Virus record (IMG/VR): IMGVR_UViG_3300023184_000327
Span: 1 to 34,440 of that record
Reading direction: 5' to 3' (one strand)
From: a virus
DNA length: 34,440 nt
Positions 3,710 through 34,060 of this stretch are shown here, in pieces; position 1 is the first letter of the stretch, and each line of letters opens with the position of its first letter. The notes under the pieces are model-generated. The model was not told the origin of the DNA and made no database searches. It saw only the letters and a list, made by a program, of their open reading frames with translations. The position numbers and the translations under genes were made by a program.

Positions 3710-4633
3710 CTATTTTTTGTGTTCGTAGATACTATTATTTATTTTACCAAAATTTCTTAATAACACACCAGCCATAGAATTTGCCTCGTCCTCAATAGGT
3801 GAACCTGTTTGTCCACTAGTTGGGTCAAGTCTACCATCTTCTTCTTGCTTACGGTGTACAAGTTCATGTGCTAATGTTCTTAATATATCAGCCATGTTTC
3901 TATTTTTAACGTAGATCCAAATTTTCTTATCATGTGGATCAAAAAATCCAAAAGTACGTTTATCTTGTGCTTGTTTATTATCGTAAGATAATGTTAAGCT
4001 ACCTGGAAGATTTTGTATTCCCAAGTTCTTAGCAGCAAATTTAATAAATTCACCAATAGTGCCTGTCTGGCTTTCTGTTAATCTGCCTTCAGTTAATGTT
4101 GGTAGTTGTATTTCTAAAATATTAATAAAATCATCTGTATTAATACCTTTAGGTAAATATTTTTCAATTTCAGTTTTACTATTAATTTTTATAGCATTTC
4201 TTAAACCAGTAGCATTTACATCTTCACCTGCAAGCATGCCTGCATCAAAAATTTCTACATTAGGGAATTGTAATGCGCTTTTAAAACGATCAACTTCACC
4301 TTTACCTGCAGCTAAAATAAAATTAGTATCAGGATTATTTTTAACAACGTTATAAACTTCTCTAATAGGACTTTCTTCAGTTAATTTTACTTCAACAGAA
4401 CTATTTAATAATGTCTTATATAATTCCCATATAGCAACACTTTCATCAGCATCAACACCATCACGAGTTTTAGGTGATACTAATACTACTACTTGATCAG
4501 CTTTATCTAATAGTTGTTGAACTACTTCAAAGTGACCTTTATGTGGTGGTTTAAATGCACCTGGAAATAAAGCAATAGTTTCTTTATCCCCTGCTTCTAA
4601 TAATTGCTGTGCTATATATTGTCCTAAATTCAT
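3710..4633 (-). CDS. Fused nucleotidyltransferase and zinc metallopeptidase, putative processed head protein
   Basis: A 307-residue protein with two enzyme domains. Residues 19-165 form a cytidylyltransferase/NMN-adenylyltransferase fold: LFPGAFKPPHKGHFEVV, with GAFKPPHKGH at 25-34 as the nucleotide-binding signature, and ATGLRNAIK at 141-149 in the place of the second signature. Residues 195-307 hold a zincin motif, LAHELVHRKQEE (His 256, Glu 257, His 260), with DEAN at 282-285 as a likely third ligand. The start MNLGQYIAQQLLEAGD ends in LLE-A, and the linker between domains contains LTE-G and LTE-S at residues 180-188, all of the prohead-protease type. The substrate of each domain is unknown. 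Confidence 0.78.
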   Translation of the reverse strand: MNLGQYIAQQLLEAGDKETIALFPGAFKPPHKGHFEVVQQLLDKADQVVVLVSPKTRDGVDADESVAIWELYKTLLNSSVEVKLTEESPIREVYNVVKNNPDTNFILAAGKGEVDRFKSALQFPNVEIFDAGMLAGEDVNATGLRNAIKINSKTEIEKYLPKGINTDDFINILEIQLPTLTEGRLTESQTGTIGEFIKFAAKNLGIQNLPGSLTLSYDNKQAQDKRTFGFFDPHDKKIWIYVKNRNMADILRTLAHELVHRKQEEDGRLDPTSGQTGSPIEDEANSMAGVLLRNFGKINNSIYEHKK

Positions 4634-5388
4634 TATGATAAAAATGTATTTATTTTAGATTTAGCATCTTCAGTAGATGTAAATTCTGGTGTTCTTTTAA
4701 CTAATGTTTGTATTGCTGTGTTTAAATCTAATATTTCTTGGTCGCGCTTTGCTTTCTCATCTGGTGTATAAACTTTACCACTACCTTTTACAGTTTGAAA
4801 AAATGTTTTTTTAGCATAAGCCGGATCAAATTCTAATTTACCTTCAGGATCGTTATTAATTAAAGCAAATTTATCACCAAATGCTTGAGCGTATGTATCT
4901 ATATTAGCATTTACACCAGCCCATGTTTTTAAAACAATTGAAGGTGATAATGCACGATCACGACTAGCGTTACGTGCTAATGATGTGTAAGGTGAAACCC
5001 AAATCATAACCATCATTGTATCGTATCCTAGTTCTTCTAATTCAGCTTTTTTCTTTAATAGTGGTTTACTAGCAGCACCAGTACCATCTATAATAATATC
5101 TTTTTTAGCTCCAGATAATTCCGCGTATTTTTCTTTAGTTGCCTTTTGTGCTTGACCCATTAATTTGCCTGCTTGAGACAATTGATCTTGATTGAAATCT
5201 GCGATTTTCATGCCTAATCCTGCTGCTTTCAATAGCTCCTCATAGGTGTCATCAACATTAATTACAGTCAAATTTTTCGGTATTAACTGCGCAGATACGA
5301 ACGTTTTACCAGAACCAGCGGGGCCCGCCATGAATATAGCTTTTGGTTTGCCTTGTGCTTCTTTTAGTAAATCTAGTAACTTAATCAT
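4633..5388 (-). CDS. P-loop kinase, zeta-toxin/polynucleotide-kinase-like, with head-targeting tag
   Basis: A protein of 251 residues from the ATG at 5388. A GTG at 5427 would add 13 residues but reads through the hairpin, and only the internal start gives the shared opening MIKLLDLLKEAQ. Residues 19-30 form a Walker A motif (FMAGPAGSGKTF), INVDD at 43-47 supplies acidic residues, IIIDGTGA at 98-104 resembles the Walker B region, and LARNASRDRALSP at 137-149 offers the arginine lid. The fold resembles zeta toxins and polynucleotide kinases. The tag ends in LKE-A at residues 8-11, a likely prohead-protease site. The acceptor (nucleotide sugar, nucleic acid or nucleoside) is unknown. Confidence 0.72.
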   Translation of the reverse strand: MIKLLDLLKEAQGKPKAIFMAGPAGSGKTFVSAQLIPKNLTVINVDDTYEELLKAAGLGMKIADFNQDQLSQAGKLMGQAQKATKEKYAELSGAKKDIIIDGTGAASKPLLKKKAELEELGYDTMMVMIWVSPYTSLARNASRDRALSPSIVLKTWAGVNANIDTYAQAFGDKFALINNDPEGKLEFDPAYAKKTFFQTVKGSGKVYTPDEKAKRDQEILDLNTAIQTLVKRTPEFTSTEDAKSKINTFLS

Positions 5389-5395
5389 ACGTGAA

Positions 5396-5403
5396 TATAA
5401 ATA
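5396..5403 (-). promoter_or_regulatory. TATTTATA element downstream of the kinase hairpin
   Basis: Coding-strand TATTTATA overlapping the downstream foot of the hairpin and ending seven bases before the kinase ATG. Together with 5429-5436 it brackets the hairpin. Confidence 0.35.
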
Positions 5404-5431
5404 GGTGACCTGGACAAGCCAAGCCACCTAT
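5401..5431 (-). promoter_or_regulatory. Strand-specific 13-bp RNA hairpin ahead of the kinase gene
   Basis: A perfect 13-bp stem with a five-base loop (CTTGT in the coding-strand RNA) in the gap between the nuclease stop and the kinase start. The two non-Watson-Crick positions are G-U pairs in the coding-strand RNA but would be A-C mismatches on the other strand, so the structure is built for minus-strand transcripts. It ends 12 bases upstream of the ATG and lacks a T run, which argues against a simple terminator. A role in mRNA 5' end stability, RNase processing or translation control is possible. Confidence 0.65.
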
Positions 5432-5436
5432 AAATA
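5429..5436 (-). promoter_or_regulatory. TATTTATA element upstream of the kinase hairpin
   Basis: Coding-strand TATTTATA that overlaps the upstream foot of the hairpin at 5401-5431. If it is a promoter -10 element, the transcript would begin inside the hairpin, so a shared role with the second copy at 5396 is unclear. Confidence 0.35.
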
Positions 5437-5452
5437 TTGCTATTTGTATTTA

Positions 5453-6235
5453 TTATGCTATCTTAACACTAGTAGGTAACGTTTCGGTTACCGGTTTAAA
5501 GTTAGGATTTTCTAATGTATATATTTCGTATATGTTTTTAAACATTTTAAAATTCTTTTCAATGTCATTTACGAATTTTAATTCCCAACCTTTACCTTGA
5601 ATTTTATCACCTTTACCTTCACTACGTGTATTTGCTTTAACCCACAATATTCCTGTATGAGTTACTTTTTCATCATGTGTTTCATTCCAAGCTGTGGCAT
5701 AAGCCGCTAATTGTAAATCATATGACGTATGTAATGAGTTAGATGTTTTTAAATCTAATAACCAAATGTTATCAAACATTCTAACAACTAAATCCGCTGT
5801 ACCAGCATATTTGTGTTCGTCTGAGAATAAATGGTATTCAGTTGCTATTAATTCTGGTTTATGTGTATTCCAAAAATCAGCAAACTTTAAAATCATTCTC
5901 CATACATCTAAGTTATACTTAGCGTTTCCAAATTCATCAATCCAAGTAATTTCTTGTCCATTTAAGAATGCATCTACGGCTTGGTGTACTTGAGTACCTT
6001 CGCCTGCTGCTTTATTAGCAATAATTTCTGAATTATGACCTACATCTTTTAACCAAGCATGGAAAAATTGATTTTTAGGAAAATAATTTAAAACTGATGT
6101 TACTGAAGGGTAATAATTACCTTCTCGTTTGTAAAATCTACTATCTAGAACATTGACCTGTTTATCACCTTCCGCATATTCAACAATACGTTTGATTTTA
6201 GGATCTTTTATAATGTTAGAATTTCTTTCGATCAT
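5453..6235 (-). CDS. PD-(D/E)XK nuclease, RecB/Cas4-like
   Basis: A 260-residue protein of the PD-(D/E)XK superfamily of RecB/Cas4 type, expected to cut or resect DNA with Mg2+. The conserved residues appear in order: GEGTQVHQAVDAFL (His 84), ATEYHL (Glu 133), YAGTADLVV (Asp 148), LLDLKTS (Asp 161, Lys 163) and the YDLQLAAYATAW motif (Gln 175, Tyr 179). I see no Fe-S cysteine cluster, unlike Cas4. Translational coupling to the primase suggests a role in replication or recombination, or in degrading host DNA. Confidence 0.85.
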   Translation of the reverse strand: MIERNSNIIKDPKIKRIVEYAEGDKQVNVLDSRFYKREGNYYPSVTSVLNYFPKNQFFHAWLKDVGHNSEIIANKAAGEGTQVHQAVDAFLNGQEITWIDEFGNAKYNLDVWRMILKFADFWNTHKPELIATEYHLFSDEHKYAGTADLVVRMFDNIWLLDLKTSNSLHTSYDLQLAAYATAWNETHDEKVTHTGILWVKANTRSEGKGDKIQGKGWELKFVNDIEKNFKMFKNIYEIYTLENPNFKPVTETLPTSVKIA

Positions 6236-33280: not shown

Positions 33281-34060
33281 TTAAATCTTTATATACCCGT
33301 GCTCATAATATTCATTATATAATCTAACACGTATAGTGTCTAACTTTTTAATGATTTTAGTAATCTGAGGAGTTGATACGTCTGTCATTTCGCGTATATA
33401 GATGTATAGTGCTTTTTTATTAAATATTTCTAGCGTTTCACGTTTACGAAATAATTCAACAATAGCATCAGCCGTCTGAGCATCATGTTGTTTAGGAAAT
33501 AATGTGTGAATATGTTTATCAATATACTTAATATACTGGTTGATAAATAGATTTGGGGAATGTAATTCATCTAAGGCATCCATTGACTCATGTAGATGTG
33601 TTTTATCTTCATCTAATTCATCTATATCAGCTTTCTCTTGTAATTTCTTATAATTGTTCTCGTTATATACAATTAAATAACGTTTAGCAATAGTACCAAA
33701 GTAACTAAATGCTTTACCTTTTTCAGATTTATATAAATGTAATTTTTCAAGAAGAAAAGTAATTACCTCATGCTTCAATTCTTCAATTGTATCAGTATCA
33801 GTGTAATAAAATTTAAACGTATGAATAATATTCTCGGCTAACTTATAAAAACCATATTTAATACGATCATTATAAATGCGATTACGTTCAGCCATATCAG
33901 TAGTAATAAGATATTCCACGATAGCATCTTCAGTATCTTGAGTAAAATATATTCTAGGTTCTTTGGGCTTACGTTTACGAGGTAGCCCTCTTTTAGTTAA
34001 AGCAATTACGTCATCTTCAGCAAAGATATCTAAATCGTAATCTTCTTCATTATATGCCAT
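33281..34060 (-). CDS. 55: T4 gp55-like late transcription sigma factor
   Basis: A 259-residue protein resembling the sigma factor that T4-like phages use to direct host RNA polymerase to late promoters. The core at about residues 55-135 has the pattern AENIIHTFKFYYTDTDTIEE, then a hydrophobic helix and FSYFGTIAKRYLI, corresponding to a sigma region 2-like fold that binds the polymerase clamp and the -10 element. No region 4 for -35 recognition is obvious, as expected for gp55. An N-terminal acidic stretch is followed by a basic patch (KRGLPRKRKPKEPR). At 259 residues it is longer than T4 gp55 (185 residues); the extra length lies in the N-terminus and in the C-terminal helices. It stands at the head of the baseplate module that it would be expected to switch on. 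Confidence 0.82.
   Translation of the reverse strand: MAYNEEDYDLDIFAEDDVIALTKRGLPRKRKPKEPRIYFTQDTEDAIVEYLITTDMAERNRIYNDRIKYGFYKLAENIIHTFKFYYTDTDTIEELKHEVITFLLEKLHLYKSEKGKAFSYFGTIAKRYLIVYNENNYKKLQEKADIDELDEDKTHLHESMDALDELHSPNLFINQYIKYIDKHIHTLFPKQHDAQTADAIVELFRKRETLEIFNKKALYIYIREMTDVSTPQITKIIKKLDTIRVRLYNEYYEHGYIKI

Follow-up and report, generated by a model that had tools for sequence, protein, structure and literature searches.

We found that a 13-bp hairpin lying in front of a phage kinase gene is a conserved gene-sense RNA element that is under selection as RNA. The reading that we favour, with confidence that stands about evenly balanced, is that this element is a translational lock embedded in a late promoter and heading a cluster of genes for probably capsid-packed proteins, where the locking step would act on RNA that enters from the gene upstream. 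The hairpin was studied in a 34.4-kb stretch of phage DNA of 30% G+C (the window, meaning the whole of the DNA that was analysed), whose genes, as taken from the list of open reading frames, all lie on the minus strand. The features that carry the argument are collected in Table 1.

Table 1. Positions in the window of the hairpin, the putative promoter boxes and the genes discussed.
Feature	Position	Strand	Basis
13-bp RNA stem with 5-nt loop (5414-5418), complete only in gene-sense RNA	5401..5431	minus	folding and covariation
Outer 5-bp stem, 3' half, pairing with 5434-5438 across a UU/UU internal loop	5394..5398	minus	folding
Box 1, ATATTTATA, putative late promoter element and 5' foot of the stem	5429..5437	minus	motif placement upstream of genes
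Box 1 in the T4 register -13..-6, AATATTTA	5431-5438	minus	
Box 2, second TATTTATA, 3' foot of the stem; putative ribosome landing site and/or weaker second late promoter	5396..5403	minus	
Predicted late RNA start (+1), fourth base after the octamer, in the 5' arm	5425	minus	purine bias and spacing cluster
Zeta-toxin-like P-loop kinase, first gene behind the hairpin, N-terminal tag MIKLLDLLKE, then A	4633..5388	minus	Pfam PF06414 E 2e-9, AAA_33 E 3e-8; PHROG polynucleotide kinase E 4e-7
Second tagged gene, MNLGQYIAQQLLEAG..., cytidylyl / NMN adenylyltransferase-like	3710..4633	minus	PHROG 395 E 2e-7, 3462 E 2e-4
Upstream exonuclease gene	5453..6235	minus	PHROG 298 exonuclease E 8e-39
Candidate phage late sigma factor	33281..34060	minus	orthologues' Sigma70_r2 matches

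The hairpin lies in a 64-nt intergenic gap between the stop codon of the exonuclease gene (5453-5455) and the ATG of the kinase gene (5386-5388). An earlier note on this DNA had claimed a stem that is whole only in minus-strand RNA, and folding bears this out: the minus-strand RNA of 5386-5455 reached -22.4 kcal/mol (z -4.8, equalled by 0 of 200 shuffles), whereas the plus-strand RNA of the same stretch reached only -15.7 kcal/mol with the stem broken (z -2.7), and the two wobble pairs are G-U in the former and A-C in the latter. The 45-nt core of the hairpin gave z -6.4, with 0 of 200 shuffles folding as well. The feet of the stem overlap TATTTATA octamers in the minus sense (5429-5436 and 5396-5403), and the stem ends 12 nt before the kinase ATG, both as the same note had described; the start codon and the 5 nt preceding it lie outside the hairpin. 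The outer 5-bp stem is conserved less than the inner stem among relatives.

A covariation analysis, which had been proposed as a check, found the pairing present in relatives and specific to gene-sense RNA. Across 19 distinct variants, 98.4% of 247 pair cells hold standard pairs, compared with 26-51% when the structure was slid along the alignment as a control. Changes on both sides of a pair occurred in 5 of the 13 pairs against a shuffled mean of 1.7, with 1 of 500 shuffles as high, and the covariation score lay above all 500 shuffles, a significance that the shuffle test overstates because the variants come from related phages. The upper stem takes part in this covariation (G-C to A-U at columns 15-33 in 6 of the 19 variants, and at columns 20-28 in 2), and the loop sequence varies. 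Gene-sense G·U occupies 24 cells; A·C, the form that a G·U pair of the opposite RNA would take here, occupies 0. This favours the gene-sense RNA as the molecule that is selected.

Upon searching viral contigs with a loose pattern in which only GG and CC were fixed in the stem, we obtained 65 matches, made up of 35 family members and 30 unrelated or other hairpins. One locus (L167) joined the hairpin set through a pattern that presupposes part of the pairing, and two (L146 and L333) were added separately; several loci represent the same phage from different samples, so that locus counts are not counts of independent events. A covariance model placed exactly one strong gene-sense copy in each of 12 of 50 whole records, many of which had also been used to build the model and some of which may be fragments. 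The hairpin occurs almost unchanged in 11 of 80 kinase loci (80 kept of 89 found), where the kinase is 80-98% identical; the other 69 showed none within 90 nt ahead of the match. It also occurs in 11 of 34 loci of a nucleotidyltransferase that is able to occupy the kinase's place, a further one (L310) having a terminator-like version. In the remaining 22, a few of them with an uncertain start codon, the 75 nt ahead of the start showed no such hairpin. A lock would thus be dispensable in many relatives.

Both neighbours of the hairpin change from phage to phage. The upstream gene across 36 loci is the exonuclease in 12 and belongs to three other families in 10, 6 and 6, with 2 unreadable, and box 1 starts about 8-19 nt past the upstream stop codon in 29 of 34 readable loci (about 140 nt, by script, in the other 5). 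BLASTP sorted the first genes at 39 loci into three families: P-loop kinases (19 loci, split into two branches that share 31% identity), a nucleotidyltransferase (15 loci) and a protein of about 470 residues (5 loci). The MNLGQY and MTHKEL proteins belong to a single family. Hence, the hairpin is kept between four upstream and three downstream gene families while both of its neighbours change. A diverged relative before the MSKYKSLSSILKEEE gene has kept box 1 and has an upper stem of different sequence, and on two contigs of 121 and 406 kb (loci L195 and L220) a box, a hairpin and a second box precede a gene starting MAIIMGIDVSTTTIGW, RuvC-like by eye. Outside this set of viral contigs, one degenerate pattern gave 0 matches in bacterial and archaeal genomes, and named phage records yielded four short matches, all at E 5. 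Rfam held no family above its gathering score, the 8 weak matches in 5300-5500 all falling far under it, and no title or opening of an abstract in the literature searched, which lay mostly outside subscription journals, describes the element.

We read the box at the 5' foot of the stem as the late promoter of these phages, from its motif and its placement. The earlier note had set the octamers as a pair around the hairpin; they do stand at both feet, but the octamer as such is not enriched across the window (17 seen, 16.4 expected), and what is unusual is its place and orientation, with 7 of the 12 gene-sense TATTTATA copies of the window falling in gaps between genes. In the 60 nt upstream of 1838 distinct open reading frames, ATATTTAT was found 280 times and its reverse complement 16 times. 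On two long related contigs, taking the 60 nt ahead of each gene that follows a gap of at least 20 nt, we counted 22 genes against 1 and 28 against 2 for TATTTATA versus the reversed TATAAATA. In Flavobacterium phage immuto, the distance from the end of the octamer to the gene is 17 nt for the terminase, 16 nt for the portal, 25 nt for the tail sheath, 21 nt for the tail tube and 30 nt for the baseplate hub. Box 1 fits the predicted late-promoter consensus fully, and base counts at the promoters gave no clear -35 element.

The T4 late promoter reads TATAAATA at -13..-6, and the -7 element of Bacteroidota is TAnnTTTG. The T4 letters also stand for gene e in a figure legend of PMC3014915, and passages of PMC2988020 describe a box of 8 bp that is separated from the start by about one helical turn, naming position -13. 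The putative promoter here is similar in consisting of a single AT-rich octamer that lies roughly one helical turn from the start and stands before virion genes, and it has the same -13..-6 register as T4; it differs in its core, TATATTTA(T) rather than TATAAATA, and resembles the Bacteroidota -7 element. As TATTTATA is the reverse complement of TATAAATA, a T4 late promoter in antisense was also considered and was rejected because the motif stands in the gene sense before genes, at the ratio of 280 to 16 given above. When 316 distinct promoter boxes were folded against 40 shuffles each, 28 had z < -3, among them 18 copies of the present element, or 19 including the diverged relative.

The position of the RNA start was derived from the same promoters. 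A purine (A or G) stands four bases past the octamer in 92% of 186 promoters (octamer-ATG distance at least 5 nt, hairpins left out), and the distances from octamer to ATG cluster at 3 nt (37 cases) and 4 nt (34 cases), with 2 cases at 0-2 nt, 3 at 5 nt and a broad hump at 13-27 nt. Together, the purine bias and the cluster of ATGs at 3-4 nt would place the RNA start inside the 5' arm of the hairpin, at the fourth base after box 1. For comparison, the spacing from the -7 element to the start is 4-5 nt in F. johnsoniae promoters, as stated in part of PMC6847099. From the predicted start the leader measures 37 nt in the window and 37-40 nt in 28 of 29 cassettes. The 71 ATGs found exactly 3 or 4 nt after a late box in related contigs are spread over many loci, and many late genes are probably leaderless, judging by start codons that a script chose. 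In hairpin-free relatives (L315-L329) the upstream stop codon, mostly TGA, touches the box and the tagged gene starts 4 nt behind, so these tagged genes are probably leaderless as well. The base ahead of box 2 is C, the usual base at leaderless-spaced boxes being A (72 of 73), yet its own fourth base (at 5392, where its +1 would fall) is A in 13 of 15 distinct versions, making a weaker second late promoter possible. At five loci (L278, L269, L295, L296 and L297, on contigs G002, G001, G005, G003 and G009) we saw a second kind of promoter-embedded hairpin, ATATTTATGGGTARCC ... followed by Ts, which lies some 110 nt ahead of a gene that starts with MSNKDLFKEAIADAKAVREAAL or the like; this hairpin may stop RNA that reads through and let late RNA pass.

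Of the three functions that the earlier note had offered (mRNA stability, processing or translational switching), the last is now favoured, because the hairpin combines a fit to the late promoter, a likely RNA start inside the stem, strand-specific covariation and a zeta-toxin-like tagged kinase in a manner like that of T4 gene e; the stability element stays on as a rival. RNA reading through from the upstream gene would contain the whole hairpin, and neither the gap sequence nor a scan showed an ordinary terminator between the exonuclease gene and the hairpin. In such RNA the lower half would pair the promoter-box sequence (UAUAGGU and the outer AAUAU) with the ribosome landing site (ACCUAU and AUAUU) before the start codon, and with the landing site buried the toxic or cargo protein would be made poorly at too early a time. 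Late in infection, the phage's own sigma factor would start RNA inside the 5' arm at about 5425, and perhaps also from box 2 at about 5392, giving RNAs that lack the lower 5' strand and whose landing site would be open. With +1 at 5425, late RNA keeps the upper 7 bp, and the lower stem and the outer pairs are confined to RNA entering from upstream.

Modelling of the two RNAs agreed with this direction of change. The mean unpaired probability of positions -20..-1 was 0.54 in late RNA against 0.26 in read-through RNA, with all 29 distinct cassettes changing in the same direction and the AUG lying outside the main stem; the gain was modest in the cassette of the window (0.23 to 0.42), and one locus (L189) had no gain over -20..+15. 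The promoter box in itself partly dictates the lower stem. Weighing for a lock are the pairs at columns 12-14, which draw their 5' base from the stretch between box 1 and the predicted +1: these bases are variable in other promoters and absent from the expected late RNA, and still all 57 of their cells are paired, one of the changes being a double one from G-C to A-U. By eye, there is no Shine-Dalgarno sequence between the stem and the AUG, which itself lies outside the helix. Translation in F. johnsoniae is tuned partly by structure around the start codon, according to a portion of PMC6847099.

Locks of this kind are known from T4, where, in the passages of PMC3014915 that concern them, genes e, soc, 49 and I-TevI have a hairpin over the translation start region in their longer RNAs, and the DNA for the 5' strand in gene e holds two late promoters, so that the late RNA of gene e lacks that strand. 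The present element is similar in that a late promoter, here assigned by motif and with a predicted +1, lies in the DNA of the 5' strand, and it may be similar in that the hairpin would cover the translation start region of read-through RNA; the two promoters of gene e have a parallel in the two boxes here. It differs from the T4 locks in having no Shine-Dalgarno sequence and a main stem that ends 12 nt before the AUG, in that its two feet are the promoter box and a second copy of that box, and in that one cassette is shared by first genes of three families and follows upstream genes of four kinds.

Two other RNA-level explanations bear on the same observations. The hairpin might be the 5'-terminal stem-loop of the late mRNA, in which a hairpin of 7 bp or longer shields the message from 5'-end-dependent decay or binds a regulator. 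As the predicted +1 falls where the GC-rich upper stem begins, a blunt stem of 7 bp would form the 5' end of late RNA, and the covariation of the upper stem and the constant leader length fit this reading; it leaves unexplained, however, why bases before +1 pair with the leader in every variant, and the loop varies in sequence. We regard it as rather unlikely. Alternatively, the hairpin might act in termination or attenuation, ending transcripts that run in from the upstream gene. The earlier note had remarked that a terminator T run is lacking, and indeed no run longer than 3 follows the stem in the window or in 35 of 39 hairpin loci, whereas the ordinary terminators of the same phages have their T run directly behind the stem; a lax consensus scan nevertheless classes the stem of the window as terminator-like, owing to its T-rich tail TTATATTCAC. 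A run of 5-6 Ts does begin three bases past the stem in four of the 39 loci (L166, L180, L146 and L333), leaving room for termination there, and the related hairpin of L310, with six Ts directly behind it and a second late box further down, is possibly an intermediate between lock and terminator. Ordinary terminators stand at this junction in some kinase relatives, and the second promoter-embedded hairpin described above has its T run before another gene. Weighing these points, we hold termination to be distinctly improbable, though it may act in place of a lock or alongside one.

A role at the level of DNA, as a recombination hot spot, a protein-binding palindrome or a small insertion with an 8-bp flanking duplication, would suit the swapping of both flanking genes around the hairpin and the resemblance of the octamers to a direct repeat. 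Against it, the excess of G·U over A·C points to gene-sense RNA, the flanking repeats are explained by a promoter box and its pairing partner, and the hairpin-bearing records among those searched with the covariance model, some of them perhaps fragments, carry a single strong gene-sense copy each; we consider such a role very improbable. We give still less credence, close to none, to an RNase processing site that would separate the exonuclease and kinase messages: a long stem between two genes of the same direction speaks for it, but a promoter box lies inside this stem, 13 bp is short for RNase III, and we saw no feature specific to such a site.

A lock that delays its gene would make sense for a protein that is packed into the capsid and possibly toxic, properties that are here predicted from the sequence. 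The kinase had earlier been called tagged and potentially toxic; it is zeta-toxin-like (PF06414), and its tag proved to be common to neighbouring genes. All 39 genes that come first after the hairpin (with 20 distinct N-termini) encode an N-terminus with L/I-x-E ending at residue 10-16, compared with 46 of 432 open reading frames in two contigs, in a test that was chosen after the tags had been seen. It replaced a looser amphipathic pattern that we discarded as weak genome-wide (seen against expected, 5 and 0.9 in the window, 10 and 6.2 in contig G001, 8 and 5.9 in contig G002, and 9 and 6.0 in immuto). Further reading frames of the window with the same kind of tag lie at 989-1384, 1388-1801, 2036-2329 and 3710-4633 (tags MIKLVDILKEE, MIKLTEILQDLLAE, MIKLLDILKEV and MNLGQYIAQQLLEA), and the tagged genes of the window form a probable capsid cargo cluster. 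In T4, according to passages of PMC9026906, L/I-x-E is the motif of the prohead protease, and ten residues at the N-terminus are enough to direct IPIII into the head. The tags resemble the T4 capsid-targeting sequences in PMC9026906 in being about 10 N-terminal residues that end in L/I-x-E on otherwise unrelated proteins, and differ in their letters, MIKLLDLLKE and MNLGQYLVQQLLE, the likeness being one of sequence. The record of the window is a fragment; a prohead protease is annotated in immuto (as prohead core protein serine protease), together with T4-type gp20 and gp23 genes.

The locus itself can be compared with that of immuto (NC_055915), to which the exonuclease gene has 68.6% DNA identity over 38% of the query. 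Both phages have the order primase, exonuclease, a variable gene, NMN adenylyltransferase and deoxyribonucleotidase, and the same box before late genes. They differ at the variable gene, which in immuto (gp089, nucleotidyltransferase-like by its resemblance to the proteins of L171/L198) has neither tag nor hairpin.

A candidate for the sigma factor that would use the late box is encoded near the end of the window. Its orthologues are the sole Sigma70_r2 (PF04542) match of their contig in 6 of 8 related contigs, one of them above the Pfam cut-off; T4 gp55 scores at similar strength in the PF04542 search, and immuto gave no match. The window protein, itself without a PF04542 match at E up to 1, is 61-82% identical to six orthologues, and gp118 of immuto, annotated as hypothetical, is 48% identical to the candidate. 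A profile comparison of the candidate with gp55 by hhalign gave no significant match, and one sigma candidate had no match by sequence in the PDB. Searches with phrog_234 and phrog_12791 gave no match in 9 records, but the controls were equally silent, so this is no sign of absence. A predicted model of the candidate (low depth, mean pLDDT 69.6) had mostly sigma factors among its top 20 fold neighbours, with a best E of 0.22 and none significant.

Taken further, and more tentatively than the lock itself, late promoter, lock hairpin and capsid-targeting tag may together form a portable 5' control cassette that lets a T4-like clade of Bacteroidota phages swap capsid-delivered effectors at one locus, with the promoter box serving as the DNA start signal late and as the antisense strand of the RNA lock early. 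A lock of this kind would follow a principle known from T4. If the lock is true, it would give lytic phages of Bacteroidota, whose hosts do without Shine-Dalgarno sequences, a way to delay toxic or cargo genes. The literature searched held no transcription map for this phage group, for which the analysis provides an in-silico late promoter with predicted RNA starts and many predicted leaderless genes. Overall, it marks a locus where probable capsid-packed effectors are exchanged, which may be useful for finding such effectors.
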